From Bidens hawaiensis (taxonomy: Eukaryota; Streptophyta; Magnoliopsida; Asterales; Asteraceae), in assembly GCA_021521415.1 (NCBI GenBank), contig JAIQDT010001732.1, positions 186,001-250,000 on the forward strand: DNA of 64,000 bases. Reading direction: 5' to 3'. The stretch's first letter is position 1. The number at the start of each line of letters is the position of its first letter. The position numbers and the translations under genes were made by a program. The notes beneath the pieces were generated by a model. That model did not search any database. It was not told the DNA's origin and was given only the letters and a program-made list of their open reading frames with translations. Shown piece by piece: positions 12,280-53,969 of the stretch.

Positions 12280-14178
12280 GTGACTATAAGATAGGACATT
12301 AGACGTAATGTTCTAGTAGGTTATAGTTTATTTGCTTAATTGTTTAGGTTGCATGATTAGAAATTATGTGAGCCTTATTTGATTGTTCAATGCACATTAT
12401 TTGGTCATTATTAATTTGTTTATGCCTCATGTACGCAAATAATATTATACCGATGATTCAATTGCCTCAATTACACAAGCACACACAAGTCAAAAGGTTA
12501 TGTTTAACGCAAAGATTTTCAATAATCAAATTTTTGATTTATGGTTGTCCGATATTTTTCTTCTTAAAGATGGTTTCGTTATGGCGGGTATGTAGTAAAC
12601 TGTAAGGGGGACGTGCCTGTTTTCCGAAACTCTTGACACCAAGGTTATTGAAACCTACGGATAAGCAATGCGTATAAATCCTAATCAGACGCGGGACCCA
12701 GTTGCTTACCTGGAGAGTTAGAAAAGAGCATGAACTCTATTAAGCCAAAAGCATACCACTTTCAACGTCATATGAATCACAACTTTAAGTTTTCAAACGC
12801 GACCATGTTCTCTTTGTGAAAATAATATGGTTGCACTCCTCTATGTTTTACAATGTGTTTTAACTGGAAGTCTGTACACGAAAACCAAGCTTTTGGTTCG
12901 ATTTAATTACGCATTTTTATACGAGAATAGTTAAGTTTTAAAAGCTTTGTGACACGATTTCTTTATTTATACGCTCATTTACGGCTTAAACTTTTAAAAG
13001 TTTGCAAAGTAAAAACCGAATTTCAAACGATTCCTTTGTTATTTTTCTATTATGTTTTAGAATTGAAAATTTAAAAAGTTATGGTGATACATAAATGGTT
13101 GAATTTCAATGTACTATATTATTTTATTTATTTACTACTACGTTTTTGAATTGAAAATCCTAAATGTCATGGTGATACATGAATGATCGAATTTCAATTC
13201 GATTACCTTATTTCCATATTCATTTACCCTTATATTTTAACTTAAAAAAAGTCATGGTGGCACATAAACCCTCGATTTTCAAATCAGTTTTACTATTTAT
13301 TGTTAAGTTTAATACTTTTTCTATATGATTTATGAGATTTTTCGTTTCTTGAAATATGAAAACCTATGATTACTCATAGGAATTTCAATTTTGAGTTTGA
13401 ATTTTGTTTCATGCAATTTCATTTATTTACTTATTCTTATGATTGATCTCGATAAATCTATTGGTCGTGTCATACTTGCGTCCCAAGTCACGCGAATTCT
13501 TCAAGTTTCGTATCGCGCCTTCTCGTTTTCCAAGTTGTCACGCTCAACCCGCAAAATGACAACCCAAGTTAGCAAGCAAAAGGCCTCCACGATTCCAATC
13601 ATACCACGTTCAACCACACCCACATTCATTGCTATATTAATTCCCAATTCAAATCCAGCACAATTCTTGGAAACTCAAACCAAACCCAACCGAAAACCCT
13701 CACACAGAAACACACCATTTTGTATAGTATGTGTAATTCCCACCACTTTACTTCCCAGAAACGTTGATTTACTTCTATTTGTGGTAGATTCAATTACCAC
13801 ATAATGCCAAAACCTACCCAAACTCAACGCCATTCACTCGTCTGCAAGACCTGTAGTTAACCATTTGTCTCAATCAGATGTTTGACCACGTGCTTTAAGA
13901 CTACTATCATCATGATGACCCTAGCACACTCGCCATACTTTGGAAGGCCTAACTTGTTCCCGCCATGCAATATCCTAACCTCGCATCCTTTGTCGACCTT
14001 ATACGATTTTCCGGTTTCAATACTTAGATTTTTACAAAACTCATCAAACTCGCCTATATTTTCTTTTGCATACTTTCCTACATTTTATTTCTTTTACTAA
14101 CACCTCGAGCCTAATCCCAAATCCTTAGTTATTTTTAACTTTCAATCAAATAGATTCTCTTTAAAAAAAACTTATTAC

Positions 14179-14217
<39 letters not shown>

Positions 14218-16343
14218 AGTTATTAATATTATAACCATTACTAATATTACTACTACAATTATTATTATTAGTACCATCACCGTCATCATCATTATTATTA
14301 TTACGGTAATTATCAATATTATTATTATTAAAATTTTTATTATTATTAGTGTTAATATTATTATTAGTAATATTATTATTACTAATATCATCGTCACTAC
14401 TATTAATATAATAATATTTAAAGTAAAATATTTGATTTAAACAAGTTTTGAGTCCTTTTGAAACTATTTTTCATTCAACTAGTCAAGTAATATGACAATT
14501 AATTTTCCTATGTCATTGGCCAAAAGAAAACATTTTTTTTTTACGTTTAAGATTTCATAAAACTTACAAGTCTTAGCGATAGCTAAACACTTTTTTCCTA
14601 AATAAAAATAGAATAAATCTTATTTCACCATGAGATATAAAAACCACGATTTATAACCGATTTTCGTAAATTAAAATATATGTTGTATCCCTTCCTTTCT
14701 TTCCCCTTCGTTAACGCCAATGAGTTTTGGCTAAGAAATCATGGCACCACCCCCACGCCAACCTTTCATACCCCCAAAAAAACCTACATTCGAGAAGACA
14801 ACCGTCGCAAGCTACATTTACTTTTCTTTATTTTCTCTTTCACGTATGTTTCGAGCTTACCCAAAGTGATTTTTATATCCACTTCTATAGAGTATTGGTA
14901 CGAAGTTTATTTTGGTCGTTCATTGATCCTTGGTCCATATTCGTTTGTATTTTATTTTTTTTATGAAATGTAAATTGGTACATCATTCTTATACGCCTTA
15001 TTAAATCGGTTTACGTTTGTTATTTCAAATAACGTGGTCTATGACCCATTTTTCTTAAACGTAACCGTTAAGTGGAAATTGAGACTATAAACATGTATGT
15101 ATAGCTACCTAATAGAAACTGTATTTTCATTTTATTTCTACATTTTACTATCGGTGACCGATTCTCTCCAAACGAATTCGTTTACTTAGAACCGGGACTG
15201 TATCCCATGTACATGCCGAGTTTATGTTATGTTATATTTTTACTCAATATTTTTTGTTTATTTGTGTACTTCTCTTTCACTCGATGGTTTATTTAAATCA
15301 TTATGTTGTTCTTGATTTCATCAATCTGGAATCAAGGCTTTATTTTGATTTCGAAATTTCAATTGTTTACTTTGACAAACTCAAGGTTGCTATTGTAACT
15401 TTTCTTTCACAAACTTAAATATATTTTAATAATGTGAATATAGAATTTCGTTTATCCGTTTTATTTCAAATTATTAATTTATATGTTGTAATGTTCACTT
15501 CATTTCACCTCAATGTTATCATTAATTACGCTGCATTCTTTCGAAGATTTCCATTTGTTAAACGTCATGGTATTTTGATACATAAAAAGTTTCGTTTATC
15601 TAAGCTATTCTCGAAACCAACTGCGTTATCAATTTACATGTTCATACTTCGTTGGTTAAATGTTACGTTTACTTACCACGTTATTCCCGACCCCATTATT
15701 TCGATCACATGTTACGCTGTTCATAATTTTAAATGCTTCATTCTTTAACTTCATTACCTCGTTTATTTCGTATTTTTTAAATCGTTTACTTGGTTTAGAC
15801 TCGATGATTTTATTTACTTGACTTAGTGTTTCGCGTCATCCTTGGTCTGAATGGTCTATTAATATGTTTTAGTAATGCTTACCCTTTAAATTCATTATTT
15901 TTTTTATTTTCAACGTTCTATATGAGAATTTTATGTAATTATAAAGTCTATGTCTTAAAACCACACAATAGAGCAAGTTATTTGGACCATCCGACGATAG
16001 AGGTAATTATAGGTCGACACGTAATAATCAAAGTCCTCGCATGGAAAATATAATAAGTCCGGTTGTGTGAAATAACTCAGAACTTGGAATATTTTTTGGA
16101 GAACAGGGCAAATAGAATATGATAAGGGCATGGTGGAAACGCCGCTGGTACATCCTATATATAAGTGTCATTGTCATATTTTCTATTTGTGGCGTTCTTT
16201 CGGGTCATTCAAAGATCTACGTTATTTTATTTTAATTATGCATGTATAAAATTTCTAAAATTTCTAACTCCGTTTATTAGTTGTTCTCTTTTAAATTTTT
16301 TTTATTTTAATTTCGGAACGAAATTTCTAAAAGTTGTAAGTCC
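12280..16343 (+). other. LARD interior, non-coding
   Basis: No frame shows a retroviral motif. The open stretches here (for example 13,391-13,804 and 15,434-15,748) are compositional and lack any recognisable domain. The sequence near 16,300-16,343 (cggaacgaaatttctaaaag) resembles the end of gypsy interiors just before a 3' LTR. The polypurine tract is weak. Confidence 0.7.
14171..14400. repeat. ATT/TTA microsatellite region
   Basis: Runs of TTA/ATT interrupted by other triplets inside the LARD interior. Translation gives only isoleucine-rich nonsense, so no gene is called. Confidence 0.9.
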
Positions 16344-18318
16344 TGTAACATTCGTTACTTTTCAAACCCGAAAACCCGACCCATTTTAAATTTTCGGTTT
16401 TGTTTCTATTTAAATTTTTATTTTTTTATATTATTAATTAATGTCAAATTTTCATTAATGTATTTTATGTGATTATTTCAACACCCTTGTAGTATTACAT
16501 ACTCATAAAACATTCATAATCAAGATCAAATATTTATGTACATGTCCCATGTAATTTACTAGAATTATTATTTAACTACAACTACTACTTTTATTATTTA
16601 TAATTATTATTATTAATTTTATTATTATCATCATCTTTTCATATGTTACTTAACTAATAAAAACTAATGAACGTTTAATTCAATTAAATTTATTAAAATA
16701 GTTAAATCTTTTGAATACCTTATTAAACAATTTTTAATTTGTGTTTTAATTATATTAAATATGATTAATTTTCATAATTTCCTTAAGACATAACAACTCT
16801 ATATTTTCAATATAAAAGGAGGACAAATCCTCCATTATTTTCACAGCTCAATCCATTCTTTTCTTAAGTTTAAGAGCACTAACAAGTAAGTTGTTACCAT
16901 TTCAAGCATTTTATAGCTTTTATTTTGATTTTATCTTGAATGTTCATACTTGTTCATAAGTTGTTCTTCATGATCATGTTACTTTTATCATAAAAATATT
17001 ATATCTTGGTTTTATCATAAAAATATTATATCTTGGTTTTTCTAAATCTTGGATCAAGCCTAGCTATTTTGCAAGAACAAACATGAATATATATTTATCT
17101 AAATCTTATGATTCGTTGATCATCATAACTTATAAACTTTCTTTTAAATAAGATTATTTATAAAAAATTCTTTTATTTAAAATATTCTACAATAGATATA
17201 ACATACTTCATATCTTTGAATTAATAATTGAGTAAATTAATTATCGTTTATTTTATTTCAACATAACTACTATTTATAATTTTCTTTAAGAGAATTCATG
17301 CAAAACATTTAAGTTAATTAATTAATTATGTTACTTGGAAACAAATGTTTAATCATAAATTGTTATTAATATTATTATTTAATCTTATATTAATAAGTTA
17401 TAATTATTTGTCTACAATTCATTATTCAACTAATAAACATCAAATGATTTATATAAACTTTATTCATTTTTGTTAAACTCATTAAGAATCCCCAAGTCCC
17501 CATTTACCATAAGTTAATTAACTTTATAATTCCGGTAGCTAGTCCTTGATTTTTGTATCTTCCTTATTATTTATAGTTTCGTGAGATTCAATTGCTTCGT
17601 TTGTTAACTTGCTTTCGGTTATTATTTCAAGTTGTCTCCAATATCAAAGTTGAGTTTCTCACACCCCCTTTTTTACCTTTTTACTATTTTGGGGGTAGCA
17701 TATATATCCTATCAAAATCAGTTTTGTTTATTTATTATTTACAAACTACAATTCGCATCATGGACTTGTGTGTTTACTTGTTACTTGCTCAAATATTACA
17801 TGCATGGATTTCTTCGATAAGTATGATCATACGCCCCCCTTTGCACTCAGGACCATTGTTTCTAGTGGAAAAGGGACTTCGATCTGAGTACGTTGGTGCA
17901 CAATCCCAACTGGAAAAGACCTTCATTTATTCTTTACACTCATGGACCATTGTTTCTAGTGTAAATAACCCTTATGTGTTTTTCATAAGTTTTCATGGAA
18001 TTGTATGGTTTTTATGTAGTATTTAAACTGTGTGAACTCACCAACTATTCAATTAGTTGACTTTATTTTATATATATGCTACATGTACTTTCATTAGAGG
18101 ATGAAATGAAGAGGATACTAGAAGTTAGGTTATCTGGATAATAAACAAGAAGATGTTTGTTTTGTTACTTTTCCCTTGTGTTTGTTCATTTGAAATAACT
18201 TGTGTACTTGATGCTTTGGAATGAATTAATGATAATATTGTCACTTAATAGTGTCACATGTGTTTTGGGAAATCTGTACGTCACACTAAGGCGTTTCCGC
18301 ATTAGCCGGGGTGTTACA
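16344..18318 (+). repeat. LARD 3' LTR
   Basis: About 1,975 bp and the partner of 10,267-12,263. Its TATA box is at 16,811-16,819. A tandem copy of taaaaatattatatcttgg near 16,990-17,040 replaces a segment kept in the left LTR. Confidence 0.9.
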
Positions 18319-22860: not shown

Positions 22861-23242
22861 TGTAAGTCCTGAATCTGGATCACTACAATTATGATATCAA
22901 TACATCAAGTATAGGTGCGGAATACCTATACTTGGTGATTCAAGAACACGGATTGACAAAGTAAAATAACACGAAGTTGATTCAAAACACACGTATATTG
23001 ATAAATACGTCGGGTGCTTAAGCACTTACAATACTTGATAACAATTACTAGGAACGAACAAACATAACCTATACATGACGGCATCTATATATAGGGACAC
23101 CACCAACCTAGCCGGCCCAAACTAACAAGGGCCCACTGAGAACACATAGATGTTCTCGGCTCACATACAACCCCAAAACCCAAGCCCAAACAAAGTTAAA
23201 CTACATACAAACTAAGCTCAACCCACATAACTAGGCCCAACA
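22861..23242 (-). repeat. Sire-A 3' LTR
   Basis: 382 bp, TGTAAGTCCT...GGCCCAACA on the plus strand. On the minus strand an inverted repeat GAGAACA-6nt-TGTTCTC (23,138-23,157) precedes the TATA box CCCTATATATAG (23,086-23,097). From 22,926 on it aligns nearly base for base with 52,999-53,313. Confidence 0.9.
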
Positions 23243-23255
23243 ATCTCCCCCTTGG
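23243..23255 (-). other. Sire-A polypurine tract
   Basis: Minus strand CCAAGGGGGAGAT directly before the LTR; the plus-strand primer of reverse transcription. Confidence 0.85.
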
Positions 23256-36136: not shown

Positions 36137-38153
36137 CAGTCGTTCATGACTTTCTCTTAACCCACCACATACTCTTGTCTGCGTCGAAACCCCAAGATAG
36201 AACTCCAGATCGATCACCATATTTGTCAGAGAATCCCTTTTGAAGCGTAACAGCAAACCTGTCTAGGTGATCTGATGATACAACATTCTGATCTGAATTC
36301 TTCATCACCAGCAGTTTCTTCTTTCCTTTTTCGAGTAGTTTCTTCTGAATTCTGCCTGATTTCTCTTTGGTGAATGGTGGTGCTTCCAGGTATTGCTTTA
36401 AAGACTCTGATTCCTCTTGTCTGCTAATACCAATGTTGTCGACTGGACGAACAGCAGAATCTTTATCTTGATCACCAGTGTGAGATTGATATACTACAGG
36501 TTCATTACTCTTGAATTCATCTCCAAATTTCTGAAATAGCTTTTGTTGGAGATCGAGATACATTGCTGTTAAACCTCCCATGCCAGATTGCAACTTTTTA
36601 ATCTTGGAGTCTTTGTCTGAGTTGCTAGCCTCAAGTTCCTGAATACGGACATCTTTAATCACCGAATCCTGCTCGAGTTCAAAGACTCGTCGTTGCAGTG
36701 CATGAACATCTACTGGAGCATTCTCAAGGACCACACCTTTTCCCTTGTTCTGAAAATAGCTCTCCTGCATAACAAGGATTTGGGAATCTTATCTGAAGTA
36801 CATGAGCTTGATTTACCCTGAACAGATGGGCCAGATGAACCAGAGGGAATGTCTGAAGGGTTTGAGCATGGAATTTCTGTCTCAAAATCAAAATCACTGA
36901 AAAAATCACTAGATATCAACTCCTGGAAAGATGGTTTAGCAACAGGTGCATTTGGTCAGCTTGTGTTTCTTGAGCATATGACTCTGGTCGATCAGTGAGT
37001 TGTTGTGGGCTGGTGGTTGATTCTGGTGCTGGTATGGGTGTTGGTGTTGGTGTTGGTGTTACGGTGGTTGTTTCGACTTCAATGTCCAACTCGATAGATC
37101 TCAAATCATCCCTTTTTCGTTTCGATGGATGAGATAAGCAGCTGGTTCTTCAACATAGTCTTCCTCAATGTTTTCAGTAACTGTCTGAGGAGGCTTCAGA
37201 GCAGTTGACTGAAATAAAGCTTTAGCAGCTTCAAGGGCTTTCAATCCTTCATCATCAGTAAGAATGGTTGACTGACGGTGTTCTTCTTCGTCTTCTTCAT
37301 CATCAGAAATTTCAAACGCTACAACACGTGGTTGAGCGGGTGCCACATGCTCGTCAGCAATCTGAGCTAAAACCGGCTCAGTCTCGGTCTCAGAAAATCG
37401 TCCGAATTTTACTAGAGCATGTAATCCCCGATAAACCACTTTTGCTCCTTTCCTAGACTGCTTCATCAACCCAAAGGAGTTGGGTCCCACAGACTTCATG
37501 TCCAAGGTTTCAACAGATTTAACCATGTCGGTGTACTGAGAATCAAAAATCATCTGCAAGAACATCTCCTTCTTCTTTGCCCTTAGGTTGCTCATCATTT
37601 CATTGAAAATGAATTTGGAATAATTGTAATTCCAATCCATGATCAGAGCAGCAATGGCAGACATTTGGGTGTGGCTGATCTCATCTGATCCTCCCTTTCT
37701 TCCTGAGATACATGTAAAGAACATGTACAAGAGGTATCTCCAGTATGGGTGAAACAACTTCTTGATTGCTGGTGGATAGGTACCTTCATAACCCATTCTT
37801 GTAAGAACTTCAGTAACTTTAGAAGCAGAGTACTCTGTTGGGTAGTCGGATTTTTCCCCAAACAGGTGCACCTCTCTGATGATGGCCTCAGTAACAACGA
37901 CTAGCTTCTTCTGTACTTTGGAATCGATTGACATGACTCCATCTAGCCCTTGTGGATTAATCTTTGCATTGTTCAAAAAATCGGTAACCATCTTCTTGCA
38001 AATGACAGGGTTCTCCCGAAGAGCATGAGAGATCCTGCACGTATTGAGTCTGACTATCATCGACTTGAATTCCTTGTGAGCCATTGGTGGATCATACAAG
38101 TGGCCAGCTATGTTATGAGTATCAAAAAACTTTAACGGGTTCTGATCAGCCAT
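36137..38153 (-). pseudogene. Sire-A envelope-like ORF, N-terminal and central part
   Basis: Starts at ATG 38,153. The first frame (to 37,101) has FFDTHNIAGHLYDPPMAHKE, CRISHALRENPVICKKMV, FHPYWRYLLYMFFTCISGRK and KKKEMFLQMIFDSQY, matching the N-terminal domain of the Sire-B ORF and the Sire-C fragment. It then passes through three more frames: a Thr/Pro repeat near 37,020-37,070, a Ser-rich part, and a coiled-coil-like part (LQRRVFELEQDSVIKDVRIQ). It ends at TGA 36,144, close to the Sire-B insertion. Hydrophobic residues near the WRYLLYMFF stretch are too short for a safe membrane call. Confidence 0.82.
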
Positions 38154-40748: not shown

Positions 40749-41540
40749 ATGAGCCGAACATGAGCCAGTATGCCAAGCCAACTCTCGAAGGCTACGGCAA
40801 TGGAGTGGCTCCACCCGAAATCACCGAAACTTTCGAAATCAAATCAAGCACCATTCATATGGTGGAAAATTCAGTTCAATTTCATGGTCTCCTCGACGAA
40901 GACCCTCTTTCACACATATCCCGATTCTTATGAATCTGCGGAACCTTTAAAATCCAGAACTGTTCAGAAGATCAAATCAAAATCAAACTCAAACTCAAAC
41001 TCTTTCCTTTCTCTCTAAGGGCACAAGCCCTAGAATGGATAGAATCTCTTTCTTCTGGTTTCATCACCACTTGGGACCATATGGTTGAACAATTTCTCCT
41101 CAAATATTTTCCGCACGATAAAATTGCCAAATACCGAGCCAGCATTACCGGATTCCGGACCGATGATGATGAATCGTTACACGCAGCATGGGAAAGATAC
41201 AAAAGTCTTCTAAGAAGATGCCCACATCATGGACTGAGCGTATGGTTACAAGTTCAAACTTTCTTTGATGCACAATCCAGTCAAAACAAACAGGCCATCG
41301 ACCAAATCGCTGGTGGAGACCTGGGATCCAAATCACCTAACAAAGCATTTGAAGTCCTGGAGAAAGCCGTAAAGAAGAGTTTCGCTTACAACCCACCAAG
41401 ATCTACACCTACCCATAAAGGAATACATCACGTTGATTCCAACACTCTTGTCAGCACAGCTTGAAGCCCTTTCTAAAAAATTCGAACAACTTCAAGCCGA
41501 ATTATAAAAAACCAGACTCACCTGTGACACTTGTTGAGGA
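40749..41540 (+). pseudogene. Athila gag
   Basis: Capsid-type gag: EPNMSQYAKPTLEGYG, VQFHGLLDEDPLSHISRFL, LFPFSLRAQALEWIESL, TTWDHMVEQFLLKYFP, LRRCPHHGLSVWLQVQTFFD. It is one frame from 40,749 to 41,464 with a TGA at 40,931-40,933. After a frameshift near 41,460 it continues through a damaged CxxC...HKMSDC knuckle (about 41,520-41,560) that contains stop codons. Confidence 0.88.
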
Positions 41541-43001: not shown

Positions 43002-44414
43002 ATGATATGCGAAATCATTGAAAACAATGAAAAATCAAAACCATCAATCGAAGAGCCACCAGCCTTAGAGTTAAAAGAACTACCAAAACATCTCGAATAC
43101 GCCTTTCTAGAGAAATATTCTCAACTCCCAGTAATTATTTCATCTCACCTTTCTAAAAAAGAGAAAGACGAACTTCTTAAGGTTCTCAAAAACCATAAGA
43201 AAGCTATCGCATGGAAGATCATGGATATCAAGGGCATCAATCCTTCCTTTTGTACTCACAAAATTCTCATGGAAGAAGAATACAAACCCGTGGTCCAACA
43301 TCAAAGACGTCTCAAACCAAACATGCAAGATGTGGTGAAGAAGGAAGTAATCAAAATACTTGATGCCGGATTAATCTACCCGATCTCGGATTCACCTTGG
43401 GTTAGTCCTGTTCAGGTAGTACCCAAGAAGGGAGGAATGACGGTCGTAATGAACGAGAAGGATGAACTAATACCAATGAGAACCATTACAGGCTGGCGAG
43501 TTTGCATTGATTATCGGAAGCTTAATGATGCCACAAGAAAAGATCATTTTCCACTTCCTTTCATAGATCAAATGCTCGAACGATTATCTGGAAAATTGTT
43601 CTACTGTTTTCTTGATGGATTTTCCGGATACTTTCAGATTCTCATTGCTCCTGAAGATCAGGAGAAAACTACTTTTACATGTCCATACGGAACCTTCGCC
43701 TACCGAATAATGCCATTTGGACTATGTAATGCTCAAGCCACCTTCCAACGTTGCATGGTGGCCATCTTTCATGAAATGATCGAAAACTCTATGGAGGTTT
43801 TCATGGACGACTTCTCAGTCTTTGGAGACTCCTTCGATCATTGTCCAAAAAACCTAGACAAAATGTTAGCTAGGTGTGAAGAAGTAAATCTAGTGCTCAA
43901 CTGGGAAAAATGTCACTTTATGGTAAAGGAAGGCATTGTTCTAGGACACAAGATTTCTCAAAACGGACTAGAGGTTGATAGGGCCAAAATAGAAACCATA
44001 TCCAAACTTCCGCCACCAACTTCAGTCAAATCCATTAGAATTTTTCTAGGTCACGCAGGTTTCTACCGCCGCTTCATAAAAGACTTTTCAAAAATCTCAA
44101 GACCTATGACCAAACTTCTGGAGAAAGACGCACCATTTGTCTTCTCCAAGGAATGTGTTGAGTCATTCAATACACTAAAAGACAAACTTATCAACGCACC
44201 AATCATAACCACACCCGATTGGACCCTTCCATTCGAAATCATATGCGATGCAAGTGACTTTGCAGTTGGAGCCGTACTCGGACAACGCAAAGAAAAACAC
44301 TTTCACCCAATTTACTATGCCAGTAAAACTCTTAAAAATGCACAAGAGAATTACACCACAACAGAAAAAGAGTTACTAGCAGTAGTCTTTGCCTTTGAAA
44401 AATTTAGATCCTAA
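43002..44414 (+). pseudogene. Athila reverse transcriptase and start of RNase H
   Basis: 470 codons. RT motifs in order: GLIYPISDSPWVSPVQVVPK, GWRVCIDYRKLNDATRKDHF, FIDQMLERLSGKLFYCFLDG, YGTFAYRIMPFGLCNAQATF, catalytic FMDD (43,800-43,811) and FLGHAGFYRRFIKDFSKI. RNase H begins with LPFEIICDASDFAVGAVLGQ and ENYTTTEKELLAVVFAFEKF. TAA at 44,412 then breaks the frame. Confidence 0.93.
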
Positions 44415-44648: not shown

Positions 44649-45970
44649 ATGCACATTCAAGAAGTGATAGAGGAAAAAGACGAAAGTCCTTGGTATGCCG
44701 ACTTTGCAAATTACTTAGCTTGTAGAATCCTCAGAAAAGGGCTTACCCATCAACAGCGGAAGAAATTCTTCTCCGACCTTAAGTTTTACTTCTGGGAAGA
44801 TCCATACGTATTTAGGAGAGGTGCGGATCAAGTCATTCGTAGGTGCGTAGCAGGCAAGGAGGCCTTAGACATTCTCAAACACTGTCATGAAGGACCTACT
44901 GGTGGGCACCACGGTACCGTCACTACGGTCAGAAAAGTGTTTGATGCAGGATTTTCTGGCCCACTATATACAAAGATACACATACTTTGATCCAAGCATG
45001 CGATGCTTGTCAAAGAGCCGGGAACATCTCATCAAAAAAAGAGATGGCTCAAAAGGGCATTCAAATTTGTGAAATCTTTGATATATGGGGGATAGATTTC
45101 ATGGGGCCATTTCCTAAATCATTTGGAAATAAATACATCCTGGTAGCAGTCGACTACGTATCTAAATGGGTAGAAGCACAAGCTTTTCCCACCAACGATG
45201 CTCGAGTAGTTGTAAGAATTCTGAAAAAGTTATTCTCAAGATTCGGTACTCCAAAAGCTCTCATCAGCGACAGAGGTACTCACTTCTGTAACACCCTGAC
45301 GGACAAGGTCTTAGCACGATATGGGGTCCATCACCGACTGGAAACACCATATCACCCGCAGACCATTGGGCAGGTGGAAGTCTCAAATCGAGGAATTAAG
45401 AGAATTTTGGAAAGAAGTGTGGGGATGAATTGCAAAAATTGGGCAGAAAAATTAGATGACGCATTGTGGGCCCTCAGGACGGCTTACAAAACTCCCATAG
45501 GAACGACACCCTTCAAGCTCGTTTACGGTAAGGCATGTTATCTACCAGTAGAATTAAAACACAAAGCCTACCGGGCCCTTAGAGCAGTAAATTTTGATCT
45601 AACGTCCGCCGGAGCAAACCGGAAAGATCAAATTCGTGAGCTCGAGGAACTGAGAAGAATGGCCTATGAAAATTCCTGGTCCTACAAGGAGAAGACTAAA
45701 CGCATACACGACGCTCATTTAAAAGGAAATAAAAAATTTCAAACTGGCGATCGTGTACTATTATACAACGCTCGTTTACGTCTTTTCCCAGGAAAACTGA
45801 AATCCCGATGGACAAGTCCATACGTAGTTGAAACAGTTTTTGACTACAGAACCATCGAAATTTCAAATTCAACCGGCCAAAAGTTCAAGGTAAATGGACA
45901 TCGATTAAAACCATATATCGACGGTCCACTTAAAGAAGTGTTGGAGGTATTAACCCTCCAAACTTCTTGA
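44649..45970 (+). pseudogene. Athila integrase
   Basis: The zinc region HCHEGPTGGHHG...CDACQRAG spans a frameshift near 44,970-44,990. The catalytic core follows in frame 44,987-45,970: [31 protein letters not shown] and [20 protein letters not shown] supply all three acidic residues. The C-terminal part ([35 protein letters not shown]) is the GPY/F-like module. No chromodomain follows, as expected for Athila. Confidence 0.92.
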
Positions 45971-46062
45971 TTAAAGAAATTTGGGAAATAAGGTCTGGCC
46001 AAGAACTTCTCAAAACTAGGCCTTGTAAAAAAAATATTTGTATATTTATAAAATATAAAAAT

Positions 46063-46232
46063 CACGGGGGCGTGCTCTCAAAGCACGGTCCCGTGCCTAA
46101 AAATGCGGGCCGACATCTACGCTGCAAAAATCTTAGTCAGAATGGCTTGTAGCAGAATTGTTAGAACAAAAACGCGGGGGCGTGCTTCCAAAAGCATGGT
46201 GCCGTGCTTGGTTTCCTGTTTGGTTATAAAAG
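46063..46232 (+). promoter_or_regulatory. Paired GC palindromes A and B with TATA box
   Basis: Pair A: CACGGGGGCGTG (46,063) and GCACGGTCCCGTGC (46,083). Pair B: CGCGGGGGCGTGC (46,173) and GCATGGTGCCGTGC (46,194). TATA box TATAAAAG at 46,225, 17 nt after pair B. The ORF at 46,299 follows. Confidence 0.65.
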
Positions 46233-46298
46233 GCACCTTGTGTCATTGCATTTCTTGCATAAACCAAAACTAAAACCAAAAACCTCTGGAAATTCAGA

Positions 46299-46595
46299 AT
46301 GCCAACTGAGATGAATGAAGCAATTCCCGTTTCCCGACATCCGAGAAATGATGCCCGCCATGTTTCCAAAACCGAGCTTCTCTTGAAACTTCAAGAACTC
46401 GTGAAAGAACTCACCGAAATGAATCTCCTTGCGGAGATGCGTCTCGCGCAACTCACCGAATCAGTGGAAAACGTGAAAATGGAACTCCGAGACATCAACG
46501 AGCAACTCCAGTTTCAAGTTCTCAGTTTCACGTATTTTCCACCACCAGGACCATTCGGAGGAGGAGAGCATTTCGGGGAGCTCTGGGAAACTTAA
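46299..46595 (+). CDS. Athila accessory ORF 1 (small coiled-coil protein)
   Basis: 98 codons with ATG, 67 bp behind a TATA box. The middle is a long amphipathic Leu/Glu helix (LLKLQELVKELTEMNLLAEM, then LTESVENVKMELRDINEQLQ). The C-terminus is PPPGPFGGGEHFGELW. No known family is recognised. A similar but broken ORF follows at 47,057 with the same promoter layout, which argues that it is a real accessory gene and not chance. Confidence 0.55.
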   Translation: MPTEMNEAIPVSRHPRNDARHVSKTELLLKLQELVKELTEMNLLAEMRLAQLTESVENVKMELRDINEQLQFQVLSFTYFPPPGPFGGGEHFGELWET

Positions 46596-46837
46596 TTTTA
46601 TGCTTTTATGTGTAAACAAGTGCATTAAGCACAATGTGTTAGGAGTTCGGGCTTAACCCGATTATTTTCTTTTCGTAGGAAACCCGGGCTTATCCCGAAA
46701 TTGTTCTAGGATCTTTATTTAATGAAAAGTAATTTTTAGATGACCAAACTTCCAAATTATCACAATAAACGTCATTCTAAAAATTCCGGATCTTGAATCA
46801 TGTTGAAAATTTAAAAGAAAAATCACTGTGACAAAAT

Positions 46838-47009
46838 GCACGGGCCGTGCTTTCCTAAGCACGAGGCCGTGGTCACCCCAGAATCTTCAGCATGATACGC
46901 GCTGACTCCGTACAATTCTCTGACTCAGAAACATTTATTCCTATAGCAGCACGGGGCCGTGTTTCCAAAAACACGGTGCCGTGTTCAACTTTCCAGTCTC
47001 TATATAATG
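46838..47009 (+). promoter_or_regulatory. Paired GC palindromes C and D with TATA box
   Basis: Pair C: GCACGGGCCGTGC (46,838) and GCACGAGGCCGTGG (46,859). Pair D: GCACGGGGCCGTGT (46,949) and ACACGGTGCCGTGT (46,971). TATATAATG at 47,001, 17 nt after pair D. The ORF at 47,057 follows. Confidence 0.65.
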
Positions 47010-47056
47010 CATGCATAAATTCACTATTCCATTCACACCAAACAAAAACTACCTAA

Positions 47057-47395
47057 ATGGAAGGAAAACGGGTTGAATGGAATCCAGTGAAAAAGGGGAA
47101 ACAACATGAATCTTCCTTCCTCGAGGAATAAGTCATGCGACTCCAATGCATCGTAAGAGATCAAGTTGAGAGCAACATGTAAACCGAAGCTCGAGTAGTC
47201 GAGTTAATTAACAAAGTCGACCTGCTTAGGTTCGAAAACTTCCATGTTGTGGATGGCCACCACAAGGAAGTGACTTCCAAACTTAACTTTCTCAACCGAG
47301 AAATCGTCATGCTCAATAAAAAGCTTGACGAACTTTTTGAAGGCAAGCGAGCACCACCACACATCCAGGACTTGTTCGGGAGTGGTGGCCGTTGA
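47057..47395 (+). pseudogene. Athila accessory ORF 2 (broken coiled-coil protein)
   Basis: 112 codons from ATG to TGA with two in-frame TAA. Helical, charged middle (VTSKLNFLNREIVMLNKKLD) and a C-terminus RAPPHIQDLFGSGGR, similar in style and length to the ORF at 46,299. I take it as a diverged duplicate of that ORF that has decayed. Homology is suggested by layout more than by sequence. Confidence 0.45.
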
Positions 47396-47624
47396 AGTTC
47401 TGACTTTGTTTCATGTTTAAGTTGTTCCTGCTAGTACTATGTGTTAGGACCCGAGAATTGTTGTACTTTTCATTTCATCTATCTTTAATTATGTTTTTAG
47501 TTTTATGTTTTTAATGAAAATTAGGATGTTTAAATTACCAAGTTTAAAATAACCAGAAAATAAAAACCCAGTTAAAAACAAACCAGCTCAATAAATAAAA
47601 AAAACAATACTGTCTGCACTACGC

Positions 47625-48279
47625 AGCACGGTACCATGCTTCTTAATGCACGGGGCCGTGTTTTTGGTCAAACAGCAGTTACGAGTTTTTACTTAATAAA
47701 ATAACTTTCTCACACAACCAACCCTATTTTCACTGCATTCTGAACCGAAAACCGCCGACCTTCAATTGTTTTGCAAATTTCTTCATCAATTCATCAATTC
47801 TAAACCTAAGGTATGTTAATTTAACAAATGTATTATCCAAATTCGTCATTCTAGGTTTAGATTAACCCTAGAATTGTTCAAATCGACCAAATCGGGTCAA
47901 AACCCGAAAAGGGTATGGGTTATTATGCTTGATTGTGATGAATAGATTGTTGAATGTTGAATAATTAGGATTTAATTGAAAGAAACAATTCGGGTTTTTG
48001 GGTTTTGACATAAATACCCAACTTACCATTAAACCCAATTGATATAACTGGTTAGAAACCAGGGTTCGAGTCTGAGTAAGTTAAAAATCGATATTAAAAA
48101 CACGAGCCGTGCCCGAAACAACACGAGTCGTGGTCAACCAAAAGTCAAACATCAAAGGAATTGAACCAGAAGCAGCAGCACGGTACCGTGCTTCTGAAAG
48201 CATGCCGCCGTGCTTTGCTTCTGTTTCAGCAAAATGAAAATTTTCCATGAGTTTTGACTAATTTAAGTGTAAATTGCAG
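47625..48279 (+). promoter_or_regulatory. Promoter and leader intron of the Athila envelope-like ORF
   Basis: Pair E (GCACGGTACCATGC at 47,626; GCACGGGGCCGTGT at 47,648), then a weak TATA (TTAATAAAATA near 47,693), a C-rich leader exon, 5' splice site CCTAAG|GTATGT (intron from 47,811), pairs F (48,101/48,122) and G (48,178/48,200) inside the intron, branch-like tgactaat, and 3' splice site AAATTGCAG ending at 48,279. The ATG follows at once. Intron about 469 nt. Splicing is inferred. Confidence 0.6.
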
Positions 48280-49293
48280 ATGGTTGAGTATGGGGAAGAC
48301 GTTCATGCATTTTTAGTCTTTACCGGATCTGATACAATAGACCGACAAGCAAATGCAAGGCTACGCCACTTAAACAAAAGAATTCTTGAACCAAATTTCT
48401 ATGCTTGCCAAGAAACCCTACACACGGTTAATCAATGGAACATATACAACACATTTGTGACCAAGTCGTGGAAGACGGTCTTTGAGCAAACAGGGGAGGC
48501 GGTAACAGAACTAACAAGGGAATTCTTGGCATCCTTTAATATAAAGAAGAATAATTTGGATATGTGGGATGAAGATGCCATTGAGTTTCGATGTGGAGGT
48601 ATATGGCGCACAACATCTCTTACCCAACTTGGGATTGATATGGGAATTTACACGAAAGAAGAAACAGAACGAGAGATCTGGGCCCATGCAAAGATAGCAT
48701 TTTAAAAAGAAGACAGTAATGAGATTGGGGATACACAAGCACGAGCATGGGAATTGTTAGGTTTCAAGGATGAAACAAACCACGTCAATGTTTCAAGCAG
48801 CACAGCCTTACGAGATCCACTGATGAAATATATTCACCAGCTGCTAAGCAAGACGATAACAGCACGCAAGAAAAATAAAGGACTGGTGAATTTACGGGAT
48901 CTGTGGGCACTTTATTGTATAAGGAATGAAGTTGCTTGCAACATCACTCACCTCTTCTGTCAACTCTTCAAGACAAATGCAACCGCTGAATGTCCAAGTA
49001 CCCCACTCTTCGGCGGTGCATGGATTTACAAGCTTTACGAAGCTTATCACGTGGACAGGGAAGGAACAGAAAGCTCAAAACCTATTGCTCTTAACCTCAA
49101 ACTCTGTTACAAATTGCAGATAGCTCAAATCTTTAGTGTAAGACCAGAAATGTGGAGGTTCATTGACAGCCGAGGCGACATCTGGGAGCCGGAAAGCCAG
49201 TTGGAGATGATGATGGAGGACGAACGACAAGATAGATTAGAGGCACAGATGGAGATGGAAGCCGAGCATGGACAGGCAGTGGGGACCATTTGA
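48280..49293 (+). pseudogene. Athila ORF1-type envelope-like protein
   Basis: About 337 codons in one frame with a single TAA at 48,703-48,705. Contains LRHLNKRILEPNFYACQETL, FRCGGIWRTTSLTQLGIDMG, LRDPLMKYIHQLLSKTITAR and GLVNLRDLWALYCIRNEV, the pattern of the Arabidopsis Athila ORF1 family found downstream of pol. The acidic C-terminus is EMMMEDERQDRLEAQMEMEA. No signal peptide or membrane segment is seen. The start at 48,280 directly abuts a splice acceptor. Confidence 0.8.
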
Positions 49294-49707
49294 CCCGGAT
49301 GCGGGTAACTGATGACTGGCGGCACTGGTAGGTCAGGCACGGGCACGGGTTGGTAGTATTTTATGAACTTATTATGTGTGTTCTAAACAATTTACTTTTC
49401 GTCGTACTTGTTTGTTTATTTTTATGTTGGTTTGGATATTTTTATGGCCGGGGGAGCCAAAGACATTATGCTAGGTACTAATTTAGCCTGGTAGGGCAAG
49501 GGATGGATGATTCCATACCCAATTTTCAGCAGTTTATGCTTGGTTGTTTGTGGATGTGTGCAGTTTTATACTATACAGGTACAAAAACAGGAAAACTGAC
49601 GAAAACCAGGGGACGCTTTGTCGAAATTTCGTTAACCCGTAGGGAAGTAACTCTTCATTTTAACCCATAATACTTAATTAGAATTTTTATATTTTCATGA
49701 ATCTTGT

Positions 49708-49746
49708 CACATTGAGGACAATGTGAGATTCAAGTGTGGGGAGGGG
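49708..49746 (+). other. First GAGGAC hairpin and polypurine-like motif
   Basis: CACATT-GAGGAC-AATGTG (49,708-49,725) forms a 6-bp stem with loop GAGGAC. Six nt later comes the purine-rich AAGTGTGGGGAGGGG. The same module occurs at 51,107-51,145 at the true LTR border. Confidence 0.75.
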
Positions 49747-50221
49747 AATTACTTGACCAAATTGATTGTCCAACTAATTATAAAAATTCTCTAAAACAAA
49801 TATTTTTGCAGTATAACAAAGATTACTTAAAAACCTAAAGAGAAAACCAAGAAAATTTTTTTGCAAACAACCAATCACTATAAAAGTGAAAAAGTAAAAG
49901 AGGTTTTGTAATATTGAGAAAAATTTTTGCAAAATATGGCGTTAATACCCAATTCCTCCGTTACTGTGAGATAAACCTTATGCCATATAAATAATTTTTT
50001 CAGAAGCTTTGAGTGAGTCATATGTTTCATGTGATTTAGAACTTGTCGCAATTATTCATTTCAAGACCGCATGAAGCGTTGTATAAAGAAGAAGGTAATA
50101 TCTACACAATTCCATCAAACCCATTATCAAATTACAAAACCCAAAAATCCGATCACCTTATCCACTTTCACCGGTAAAATACAACATTAGTCTTTTACCG
50201 GCAGACCCTAAAGAACTGGAA

Positions 50222-50641
50222 ATGCATTCTTTCGATTTCAATTTACTTTGCTGCATACACTTCACAAAACCTAGGTTGCCTCCAGAACTTAGGGAGAGAA
50301 TCTTTCTCTTTAGCAATGAGGTGAGGAAAAAGTGGCGCCAAAATGAACAAAGGCCACCATTCTGTGGAATTTCCAAAAAGGCAATGAAGAGAAGAGCAAA
50401 AAGATATGAACGATGTTTAGGTTGCGGAAATTGGTCCCACGAAGGAAGATGTAGAAAAAGTCAAACTCAGTCTCAGCATGAATATACCGAACTAATGAGG
50501 GCGGGGGCTATTAGGCTCAAAGCCGAACGATCCATTAGAGTTGGAAGTTATATTCAGAATAGGATGGAGGAAGAATTAATCCACATCCTCGATAAAACTG
50601 GTCTTGACGATCTGACCTTAAAAGAGTCATTAGGTATATAA
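50222..50641 (+). CDS. Athila accessory ORF 4 (basic, CCHC-like)
   Basis: 139 codons. A strongly basic segment (SKKAMKRRAKRYER) leads into CLGCGNWSHEGRC, a C-x2-C-x4-H-x3-C pattern one residue shorter than a classical zinc knuckle. It ends in an acidic helix (RMEEELIHILDKTGLDDLTL). It could be a nucleic-acid-binding accessory protein. No family is recognised. The frame is open upstream of the ATG, so the true start is uncertain. It lies between the two polypurine-like motifs. Confidence 0.5.
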   Translation: MHSFDFNLLCCIHFTKPRLPPELRERIFLFSNEVRKKWRQNEQRPPFCGISKKAMKRRAKRYERCLGCGNWSHEGRCRKSQTQSQHEYTELMRAGAIRLKAERSIRVGSYIQNRMEEELIHILDKTGLDDLTLKESLGI

Positions 50642-51106
50642 TGGTTATATATATATATATAAAACTCTCGAAGAAAAGGAGCTAACCATTGAAGACATCT
50701 CAAAACTCCCGACAAACAGTGGAAGTTGTATCTACCATTAAACTTTGAACCACCACAAAATACCAATCCCTACTCACACTAAACCGAAACCCCTTTTTAC
50801 CTTCTGATCTATGCAACCATTAAAAAGGTGGAGATTTGAACTTGTTACAAGCTTATTTATTACAGGTTGCATTTTGACTAAGAGTGTTCACACATACATC
50901 ACAGGTATGATCAGATATAAAACCGAGTGTTAGTGAACATTATGAGAACGTTACGTTTTGCATAAATGGAAGCTCATAAAAACAAAAGTTCTCTCTTATT
51001 TATCACTAACATAAAGATTGGTTATTTTGTTTCATCTTCTTGGAGCTCACTTAAGGAATAACTATAACCTAAATTTGCTGTTTTTTTAGAGGATATTTAT
51101 AAGAAG

Positions 51107-51145
51107 ATTGCTTGAGGACAAGCAATGTTCAAGTGTGGGGATGTT
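51107..51145 (+). other. Second GAGGAC hairpin and Athila polypurine tract
   Basis: ATTGCTT-GAGGAC-AAGCAAT (51,107-51,126) forms a 7-bp stem with the same loop as 49,714-49,719. AAGTGTGGGGATGTT follows and directly precedes the LTR start TGATGTACAT. Confidence 0.8.
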
Positions 51146-52998
51146 TGATGTACATATAAATATTCATCTTTTCGGCATCATATAATCTCTAAAAACTGCA
51201 ATTTCTATCTAATAACATAGCATAAAAGACTACTTATCATAATAAAACATAATTTCAGGTGAAACCAAGCCCCAAACAAAGAAACAAGCAAAAAGACGAA
51301 GAAAAACAGAAGAAAACACAAGAAAACGAAGAAACACGCCCCTATGCCTCAAAAAACACGCCCCCATGCTTCAAACATAAGAAGAGACAAAATCTGGAAG
51401 CAAAAGCACGGGCCGTGATTATCACGCACGGGTCGTGGACGAGGATACAGAAAAGACAAAAAGAATTGAGCACATGTCACTAAAAAAGCACGGGGCCGTG
51501 CTTATCACGCACGGGGCCGTGGACGATAATACAGAAAAGACAAAAAGAATTGAGCACATGTCACTAAAAAACACGGGGTCGTGCCTACCAACCACGGGGC
51601 CGTTGCCACCTCACACAAAATACAAAACAAATCTGGCACATGTCATAAAGATACACGGGGCCGTGCCTCACCATCCAGATTGCCTATAAATAGTGGCACA
51701 TGTTGCATTCATTAAGTGTGCCTTGAAAAGAATTCTCTCCGGTTTTCACTTATAAAAACACACACTAACACTCACTTTGAAGATCTAGTGAAGAGTTTGA
51801 AGGTTTGGAGGTCATCACCACTAATCATCATCATCAACCATCATTACCATCATTAAGAAGAAAGATTCATCTATATTTGGTTAGATTGTTCTAAGTTTAA
51901 TCATGTATTTGTTATTATCAATCATCTTAATGTCTATCATCATGCTCATTATGAGCTAAACTCCTTTTACCATCTAAAATCTATGAAGAAGCTTAGTTTT
52001 ACTTGATAATTAATCAAGACATGTGATGTAGTCTAGTAAAGTACATGGTTATATTACAATTATCTTTTGATGAGAAATGTTTCACCATCTTAAATCACTA
52101 ATTCAAAGTTGGAAGTTGTCAATATCATTGGCAATCGTTCATGATCGATTCATGTTCTTGAAAGATATAAATACTTTGATATATTATCGAAACATGGATC
52201 CTTATATTGTACTTAGAAATGATGAGATATAAGTTATGGTGTATTTTTCTAATCCTTGGTAATCCAAAAATGGCTGTGCTTAGGATATCAAATTAGCCAA
52301 AGAAACCATATGTTAACGGAATGTGTAATTATAACCTACTTAATCAACCAAGGGGAGGTTGTGTGATGAACTACAACCACCCGAAGTTGTTAGAATTGGT
52401 ATTCGAGAAATTGAAGTCAATCCTAATCTTTCTACTTTACGAAACTACTTGCCAACTTAAATTGACATCATTGAGATGGTATGACATTAAGAAAGGGTGG
52501 ACTTTAAAATGCGCATATCATCTCCTTAGTGCCAAAGATGCTCACTTAAGGTTTAAGGAGCTATCTATCATATATTGCTACGGCAAGTTTATCACATGTC
52601 TACATATTACTTATCAATGTTAAAATGGAGTGGATTCTTGATCTTAGATGGTAACCTTCGCATAATTGAACAACTCGTTTAGAATTTCTTATCTTGGTCA
52701 CCTATATATTATATATAAGTATTTATATTTTATAAAAAGATAAAAATTCACCCTAAAATGACTAAAACCTCCGATTAAAGCAAAACAACGATTCATTATT
52801 AGAAACCTTTGTGTCCACGGATCGATACTTGGTTCTTACCAATACTATTCTACATATACGATAGGTACACTTGCCTATTTTGTGTGTGTTTAGTCTTTGT
52901 AGAAATCACTTTTATAAATTTAAAACACGATCTTGTGCAAAAGCAAATCATTCCATCCCATCATTTATATTTTATACAAGCCGCGCACACGCACATCA
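51146..52998 (+). repeat. Athila 3' LTR
   Basis: Starts TGATGTACAT after the polypurine tract. Contains pairs H-L of the GC palindrome, a TATA box CTATAAATAG (51,684-51,693) and, near its end, the conserved GGATCGATACTTGGTTCTTA and acacttgcctattttgtgtg stretches typical of Athila LTRs. The right border, about cacatca at 52,998, is set by the reappearance of Sire-A LTR sequence at 52,999. Confidence 0.75.
51403..51670 (+). repeat. Tandem repeat of about 83 bp in the Athila LTR
   Basis: Three full units and a partial one start near 51,403, 51,485, 51,568 and 51,650. Each has a pair of CACGGGGCCGTG words, then gacaaaaagaattgagcaca-type sequence. The last unit has a single palindrome, followed 19 nt later by the TATA box. 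Confidence 0.85.
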
Positions 52999-53313
52999 CT
53001 ATACTTGGTGATTCAAGAACACGGATTGAAAAAGTAAAATAACACGGAGTTGCTTCAAAACACGTATATTGATAAATACGTCGGGTGATTAAGCACTTAC
53101 AATACTTGATAACAATTACTAGGAACGAACAAACATATCCTATACATGAAAGCATCTATATATAGGGACACCACCAACCTAGCCGGCCCAAACTAACAAG
53201 GGCCCACCGAGAACACATAGATGTTCTCGACTCACATACAACCCCAAAACCCAAGCCCAAACAAAGTTAAACTACATACAAACTAAGCTCAAACCACATA
53301 ACTAGGCCCAACA
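52999..53313 (-). repeat. Sire-A 5' LTR remnant
   Basis: Matches 22,926-23,242 nearly throughout and ends GGCCCAACA, followed by the duplication AATAC. The first 65 bp of the LTR are lost at the Athila junction. The GAGAACA/TGTTCTC inverted repeat and the TATA box (about 53,157-53,168) are kept. Confidence 0.9.
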
Positions 53314-53318
53314 AATAC

Positions 53319-53969
53319 AGTTATCAAATACAAAAACAAGTGTGATTTTTCAAGGATGTGCGCAATTGTTAATAGCGTTAGCTGATGATCGAGAACATAA
53401 CATTAATTTCTCACATATTTGCTTAATTCTCGTCCTCGTGACAGTGAGGTTGGGTTGTGCCGATCTCAAGTAATGGGGCGACTAAAGTTGTCTTGGTTTC
53501 AACTTTCGAATTGGAACAATTATTAATTAATGCAAATGGGGATAAATTAAATAGATTGTATTTAATATATGATATATAATTAAATTAGTAGATGAACATG
53601 TAGGTATTATTTATTTTCTAATTACCGAGTTAAGGAATATATAACCTAATCAAACTAGTGATTTTGGTTATGTTTTTGAAATCAGTTTTAGAGATATATT
53701 TTTATAGTTATATAGCCAGATTGAGTGTTATTCAGTTGAGTTCATCATGTGTGTTTTTCATTTTGGTGAGTTATATCAAACCTTTTTTCATTAATTTTGG
53801 AAATTTACCAAATGTAAAGTCTCCAAATACCAATGTTGATAAAATAAATCAAACCGATTAGGGGATCTAACTGGATAAATAAGGTTAAAAACAAAGTTTT
53901 TAAACCATAACCCACATTACATACTTGATAAGTGCATAAATAGCATAGTACATAAAGGGAGGAAAAAGT
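53319..53969. other. Flank between Sire-A and the next LTR; no gene seen
   Basis: AT-rich, no recognisable coding sequence. 53,900-53,968 resembles 19,190-19,260 (acattacatacttgataag-type stretch), so part of it is a dispersed repeat cut by the LTR at 53,970. Confidence 0.5.

Follow-up and report, generated by a model that had tools for sequence, protein, structure and literature searches.

An Athila-like retrotransposon of Bidens hawaiensis carries pairs of palindromes, at a near-fixed spacing, ahead of three TATA boxes, one in the LTR and two internal. These pairs probably serve as upstream activating elements for the LTR promoter and for two internal accessory-gene promoters, a reading to which we give a probability of about 70%. 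The extra 3' genes of plant retrotransposons may be expressed via splicing, read-through or internal promoters; in the present element, TATA promoters of the LTR, A and B, three in all, appear to be built on a single strict module. Because the pairs precede the main TATA box as well as the two internal ones, the arrangement points to what may be a common on-switch that serves both the element itself and part of its additional genes. The analysis shows the sequence, the spacing, the TATA offset and the conservation across copies; binding by a protein, transcription that starts at the internal boxes and splicing are inferences.

The window, i.e., the whole stretch of 64 kb that was analysed, contains the RT-RNase H domains (43002-44414) followed by the integrase (44990-45970). 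This is the gypsy gene order, and the accessory ORFs lie between the integrase and the 3' LTR (Table 1). The element is described as Athila-like Ty3/gypsy on the basis of an earlier reading and of this gene order; a search for a second LTR copy found none. As for relatives elsewhere, a pattern scan of viral contigs and an integrase scan gave no matches, and 36 pattern stretches in a genome contig collection, in records titled bacteria or bacterial MAGs, were judged to be chance.

The palindrome words listed in a preliminary description were found again within one base of their positions, and their pairing was confirmed: CACGG(N1-2)CCGTG palindromes occur in pairs whose centres are 20-22 bp apart. 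With up to two mismatches, GCACGGNNCCGTGC has 14 matches in the 64 kb, all of them at 46062-51666; chance is ruled out, since 0.18 matches are expected and none of 100 shuffles of the sequence reached at least 14. All 10 exact CACGG(N0-4)CCGTG sites of the window, and 18 of the 21 with at most one mismatch, fall inside 46000-51700. An eleventh pair, degraded, was added to the earlier list (51335/51357). The pairs at 51407, 51489 and 51572 are not independent of each other because they are all part of a tandem repeat of ∼82 bp.

Table 1. Palindromes, TATA boxes and accessory ORFs in the 3' part of the element (window coordinates)
Feature	Position	Strand	Remarks
P1 distal palindrome pair	46063..46095	+	motif scan
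P1 TATA-proximal palindrome pair	46173..46206	+	motif scan
P1 TATA box TATAAAAG	46225..46232	+	18 bp past last palindrome; identical in 5/5 aligned copies
Accessory ORF A, 98 aa	46299..46592	+	homologues P0012, P0013
P2 distal palindrome pair	46839..46871	+	motif scan
P2 TATA-proximal palindrome pair	46950..46983	+	motif scan
P2 TATA box TATATAAT	47001..47008	+	17 bp past last palindrome; identical in 8/8 aligned copies
Accessory ORF B	47057..47395	+	in-frame stops break this copy (read by eye)
P3 first pair	47627..47660	+	no TATA box 17-19 bp further on
Likely intron 5' of ORF C	47811..48279	+	donor GTATGTTAATTTAACAA in 6/6 copies, acceptor AG in 6/6 copies
P3 second pair	48101..48132	+	within likely intron
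P3 third pair	48179..48212	+	within likely intron
Accessory ORF C	48280..49293	+	broken by stop at 48703-48705
Accessory ORF D, 139 aa	50222..50641	+	Viral_NABP PF05515, E 6.3e-18
3' LTR	51142..52998	+	ends inferred by eye: polypurine tract at 51131, TG...CA
LTR degraded pair	51335..51368	+	absent from earlier list
LTR three pairs (51407/51427, 51489/51510, 51572/51593)	51407..51604	+	∼82-bp tandem repeat
LTR single palindrome, TATA-proximal	51654..51665	+	
LTR TATA box TATAAATA	51685..51692	+	19 bp past last palindrome

Three sets of palindromes had been said to end 17-19 nt before a TATA box, and the gaps measured are 18 bp (46225), 17 bp (47001) and 19 bp (51685). With spacers of 0-30 bp allowed, the 3.47-Gb assembly of the species holds 2766 palindrome pairs and its reversed control none. 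The distances do not spread evenly; instead, they peak sharply at 21-22 bp, as 50 of 50 pairs listed lie at 20-23 bp (12-42 possible) and 48 of 50 at 21 or 22, with the proviso that the matches listed come from the first contigs and include related copies. Among these 50 pairs there are 36 distinct spacers, which vary in sequence yet stay 8-11 bp long. The association of palindromes with TATA boxes was also borne out: combinations of palindrome and TATA number 1437 + 1508 (reversed control, 0 + 4), and in 92 of 100 matches listed, again from the first contigs and with related copies among them, the gap is 17-19 bp (0-30 possible), the other 8 falling outside this range. One copy, L074, speaks against the module: TATAWA lies at 9 and 31 bp in its 5' cluster, and the 448 bases 3' of its integrase are free of palindromes with one mismatch or fewer.

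Across copies, mean divergence is 0.106 for the arms, 0.208 for the spacers, 0.239 for the flanks and 0.082 from the TATA box to +35; the value for the arms is below half that for the flanks, and the spacers come close to the flanks. For the P1 arms taken alone, the slower divergence is not significant (p 0.074). A constraint on the arms is thus supported, as is the view that spacer length is better kept than spacer sequence.

How might such a module work? One palindrome (about AAGCACGGnnCCGTGCTT) would offer two half-sites to a single protein dimer, and two dimers about two helical turns apart would both sit on one face of the DNA. The TATA-proximal dimers would help to position the transcription machinery at the TATA box that follows after 17-19 bp. 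In the LTR the module would yield the genomic RNA, and at the two internal promoters separate mRNAs for ORFs A and B; ORF C may use a TATA-less, spliced form of the module. The protein that binds would most probably be a transcription factor of the host.

The closest known counterpart, as far as the accessible text goes, is the set of CGG-CCG repeated motifs (RMs) of Sireviruses, which belong to Ty1/copia and for which an internal promoter was proposed (Bousios et al. 2010, PMC2829016). Both systems have a palindromic unit in many copies with a CGG-CCG core, gathered in clusters ahead of the TATA box in the LTR; in the Sireviruses the clusters coincide with CpG islands (PMC2829016). Sirevirus RMs also precede the ENV-like gene, and here pairs P1-P3 precede the accessory ORFs A, B and C. 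In Ty1/copia the integrase precedes the RT, whereas in this element the RT-RNase H comes before the integrase; here, unlike in the RMs, the sites are paired about two helical turns apart with a 17-19 bp offset to the TATA box, and two internal TATA boxes precede separate small ORFs. The comparison suggests that copia and gypsy lineages alike make use of CGG-CCG palindromes ahead of TATA boxes, and this hints at a common host factor. In potato, the accessible account of StBBX24 gives a ChIP-seq motif, AYCYACGGDCCGTRG, that is a CACGG-CCGTG palindrome, its database matches having q-values of 1 (PMC12701598). A literature search of partial coverage, where absence is weak evidence, brought up neither a description of palindrome pairs in Athila nor one of Viral_NABP in any retrotransposon; NABP is not named in the accessible part of an extra-domain screen of 121 angiosperm genomes (PMC9289625). 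With 2766 pairs in the assembly and three promoters that appear to share one strict module, the internal-promoter hypothesis is directly testable.

Gomez-Orte et al. 2013, by the title cited in PMC11963269, reportedly described an accessory gene of Grande, an element of a different lineage; this gene of the 3' internal region is said to have a promoter of its own, as proposed here. In the accessible parts of PMC2829016 and PMC1142308, the env-like ORFs of Athila, Calypso and BAGY-2 have predicted splice acceptors; these elements share with ours an additional polypurine tract and an accessory ORF after pol, here ORF C, that is probably spliced, and those parts make no mention of paired palindromes or internal TATA boxes.

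Pooled dN/dS values of 0.24 for ORF A and 0.26 for ORF B show purifying selection on both, in favour of the promoter reading. ORF A matches no Pfam family at E≤0.01, and the idea that A and B are duplicates was unsupported (hhalign probability 2.3%). The reading in the preliminary description is supported in part, and its proposal that the module is reused for each accessory gene is not borne out in that form: the near-fixed TATA offset stands for the LTR and for two accessory ORFs, and not for the others. Three pairs lie upstream of ORF C, and none of them (47627, 48101 and 48179) is followed by a TATA box after 17-19 bp; the ORF looks spliced, the segment in front of it probably being an intron. 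Its second part (48754-49293) shows a sub-threshold resemblance to Athila ORF1/Transposase_32 (PF20167) at E 0.0041 and 17.5 bits, the curated cut-off being 45. In the 2.0 kb upstream of ORF D there is no palindromic site with one mismatch or fewer. Two points count against the module reading: P3 lacks a TATA box at this distance, and no pair lies near ORF D.

Could the element read its own palindromes? In a logic like that of VANC, the anti-silencing proteins of VANDAL transposons, the pairs might bind a protein encoded by one of ORFs A, B and D, which would activate the element or lift its silencing. We consider this unlikely, and ORF D is a speculative candidate for such a binder. It is a Viral_NABP protein kept at one position in 5 of the 7 copies fetched (pooled dN/dS 0.37), and the ORF A homologue P0012 weakly matches, below threshold at E 0.0026, a tetramerisation coiled coil. 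The accessible text on a carlavirus protein, p12 of Chrysanthemum virus B, describes it as activating transcription in the nucleus and suppressing silencing (PMC7588395). However, the match of ORF D to Carla_C4 is not significant (E 0.7), and its structure model is poor (mean pLDDT 54). ORF D has no match in the phages collection, and Mago nashi, the top hit among PDB sequences at E 0.33, was dismissed as chance. A bolder version is a closed circuit, where a paired-palindrome code would drive the genomic RNA and the accessory mRNAs and be read by the element's own carlavirus-type NABP (ORF D), a protein that an RNA virus has in common with the element or has passed on to it, as activator or anti-silencer; its odds are low.

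Another possibility is that the palindromes work as RNA, as hairpins of the genomic transcript that serve in packaging or as a source of small RNAs. The arms can pair by construction, and Bousios et al. 2016 reportedly tied small RNAs to the palindromic LTR regions of maize Sireviruses. The accessible text of PMC10760457 describes small RNAs as over-represented at these palindrome clusters; clusters in the LTR cis-region are common to both systems, and the maize elements have a different word (CACCGGACNNNGTCCGGTG) and belong to a different lineage. We hold this role improbable, given the changes seen in 193 distinct paired palindromes: pairing is lost through 96 single changes and kept as a wobble in 45 others, and 7 double changes restore it where about 6 are expected by chance, with the caveat that many changes may reflect decay in dead copies. 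Thus, the arms vary independently, which fits half-sites in DNA. The fixed 17-19 bp TATA offset and the lack of any Rfam family at gathering scores in 45900-53000 likewise speak against hairpins. The outer spacer bases (CTT...AAG) gave no signal of complementarity, the count being 32 of 48 and the mean of the shuffles 32.0 in 16 ten-base spacers chosen by eye from the 19 of that length. A hairpin effect could coexist with the promoter role.

Finally, that the pairs have no function and spread through tandem duplication or slippage at palindromes is very improbable: the LTR pairs do sit in the ∼82-bp repeat, and the number of pairs differs between copies (P2 of L072 has lost 22 bp, and P3 of L070 has an extra degenerate pair), but the flanks of the internal pairs are unrelated (no similarity at p<0.02 in any comparison involving one, with 55 comparisons per side), the spacers keep their length despite sequence differences, the arms persist longer than the flanks, and the TATA offset is near-fixed.

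The palindromes of the CACGG(N1-2)CCGTG type occur in the window as 11 pairs, with a centre-to-centre distance of 20-22 bp. Their positions, as read from the sequence in the preliminary description, were borne out, and chance is excluded as their source. They belong to an Athila-like element of Ty3/gypsy gene order (gag, RT-RNase H, integrase) that carries four accessory ORFs, A to D, downstream of the integrase; the pair-bearing regions upstream of ORFs A, B and C are called P1, P2 and P3.

Features of the window element
Feature	Position	Remark
gag	41081-41464	Athila-like element
RT-RNase H	43002-44414	Athila-like element
integrase	44990-45970	Athila-like element
accessory ORF A	46299-46592	
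accessory ORF B	47057-47395	broken
accessory ORF C	48280-49293	broken; Transposase_32 similarity weak, sub-threshold
accessory ORF D	50222-50641	Viral_NABP, E 6.3e-18
polypurine tract	51131	followed by 3' LTR
3' LTR	51142-52998	boundaries placed by eye

No second LTR copy was found when 50600-53600 was compared with the window, the single match outside itself being a 318-bp repeat (22926-23243 and 52999-53314, 96% identical, 30 kb apart), whose latter copy starts directly after the inferred 3' LTR end. A second polypurine-like tract (CAAGTGTGGGGAGGGGAA, 49731-49747) resembles that at 51131; PMC2829016 notes an additional PPT in Athila4 and Calypso.

Could the pairs simply have been copied together with their surroundings? 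With palindromes masked, the 80-bp flanks of all 11 pairs were compared (55 comparisons per side), and similarity at p<0.02 was limited to LTR pairs, in one comparison upstream and five downstream (p 0.015 for the weakest two). The internal pairs are thus not recent copies moved with their surroundings, while the three best LTR pairs are tandem repeats.

Pairs recur across the 3.47-Gb assembly. When a spacer of 0-30 bp was allowed, 2766 pairs were reported (reversed control, 0), each appearing on the two strands alike, since the pattern equals its own reverse complement. Under a stricter pattern there were 1200 + 1276 matches (control, 0 + 0). The even spread of spacings that would have spoken against a fixed distance was not seen: among the 50 places listed, which are from the first contigs, include related copies and are not 50 independent events, start distances were 20 (1), 21 (24), 22 (24) and 23 bp (1), with 36 distinct spacers. 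A Streptomyces contig (L026:1724-1830) holds three occurrences of the CACGG/CCGTG pair pattern with a 38-bp period.

The offset to the TATA box is 18 bp in P1, 17 in P2 and 19 in the LTR. Across the assembly, a palindrome followed by TATAWAWR within 30 bp, a pattern that leaves out the P2 box (TATATAATG), was found 1437 + 1508 times (control, 0 + 4). Among 100 places listed, the gap was 19 bp in 76, 18 in 13 and 17 in 3, the remaining eight being 9, 10, 13, 15 (three times), 20 and 24 bp. The window and fetched loci (23 sources) hold 28 TATAWA at 17-19 bp, a rate biased by the strand having been picked by this very rule in 15 of the 23; the assembly-wide counts are free of this.

Seven other 9.9-kb stretches, selected via pair matches, keep the order INT-P1-A-P2-B-P3-C-D-LTR as far as each extends. 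The integrase is present in 4/7, A in 5/7, B in 7/7, C in 5/7 and D in 5/7. ORF A of L069 and L070 and ORF D of L072 would fall outside the stretches. L067 carries D and lacks C; in L073, A and B are present and C and D absent despite sufficient length. The TATA boxes are unchanged in aligned copies at P1 (n=5) and P2 (n=8), as are the putative splice donor and acceptor AG upstream of ORF C in the P3 alignment (6 copies). Loss of 22 bp (one spacing unit) has left P2 of L072 with one palindrome, and P3 of L070 has an additional degenerate pair. Two further stretches were examined. L074 has gag, RT and integrase and, upstream, a palindrome cluster where TATAWA stands at 9 and 31 bp; the 448 bases after its integrase contain no palindrome with ≤1 mismatch. 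In L075 (1-8901, minus strand), ORF D lies between two palindrome clusters and precedes gag, RT and integrase, so that this copy is rearranged or nested.

Mean pairwise divergence is 0.106 in the arms (140 columns) vs 0.239 in the flanks (1070 columns), a difference attained in 0/10000 permutations (singly: P1, p 0.074; P2, p 0.0003; P3, p 0.0001) and retained in CpG columns alone (0.144 vs 0.233, p 0.027). Central bases (0.201), spacers (0.208) and near flanks (0.208) diverge more, and TATA to +35 less (0.082). Deviating arm cells (75/869) fall chiefly at inner G/C and CpG positions, which leaves CACG...CGTG as the best-kept core; 315 distinct half-sites prefer G (0.66), A (0.69) and A (0.66) at -1, -2 and -3 outward. 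Of the single changes seen in 193 distinct paired palindromes, 96 disrupt pairing and 45 keep wobble, and pairing-restoring double changes number 7 vs ~6 expected. Since the arms vary independently, the sequences favour half-site recognition in DNA over a selected hairpin, although many changes may be post-insertion decay.

The word, its paired spacing, TATA offset, conservation and many copies are observed directly. On the proposed mechanism, two dimers would sit on one DNA face and the paired palindromes would activate TATA promoters, yielding separate mRNAs for ORFs A and B; that of ORF C would be spliced and TATA-less. The notion of one module for each accessory gene does not hold, because ORF D has no palindrome with ≤1 mismatch within 2.0 kb upstream.

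The putative pair-reading factor would by default be a host factor. A bold alternative, by analogy, would be the element's own ORF D protein, prompted by p12 of chrysanthemum virus B, to which PMC7588395 assigns the role of a nuclear transcriptional activator. ORF D belongs to the carlavirus-type nucleic-acid-binding protein family, occupies the same place in 5/7 fetched copies and has relatives in Tagetes erecta and Smallanthus sonchifolius, which makes the host plant probably an Asteraceae; section 12 of PMC9289625, which screened LTR elements of plants for domains, does not name NABP. Relative to the window copy, pooled dN/dS values (INT 0.20, A 0.24, B 0.26, D 0.37, and C1 0.14, the ORF C values resting on nearly saturated synonymous sites) indicate past purifying selection on the accessory genes; single copies reach 0.95 (B, L068) and 0.93 (A, L071). 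ORF A has relatives solely on short contigs in ENA, with 12 and 5 member sequences and maximum lengths of 1202 and 748 bases; these contigs may be transcripts.

The closest known counterpart is the Sirevirus RM, a repeated motif of copia elements whose CGG-CCG palindromes lie upstream of both TATA and ENV (PMC2829016). The RM is a good fit as a motif class, but assignment to the Sirevirus lineage fails because the window element is gypsy by gene order. With respect to the literature, as far as searched, three features are new: the spacing in pairs, the nearly exact distance to TATA and the presence of two internal TATA boxes.

Elsewhere in the window, a minus-strand ORF of another element (37101-38153) is weakly similar to Transposase_32 (E 2e-6, under the curated cut-off), a direct repeat of ~2 kb (10267-12263 and 16344-18318) is 95% identical at 6.1 kb apart, and a short-period array at 14135-14446 has steps of 9, 12, 15 and 21 bases.
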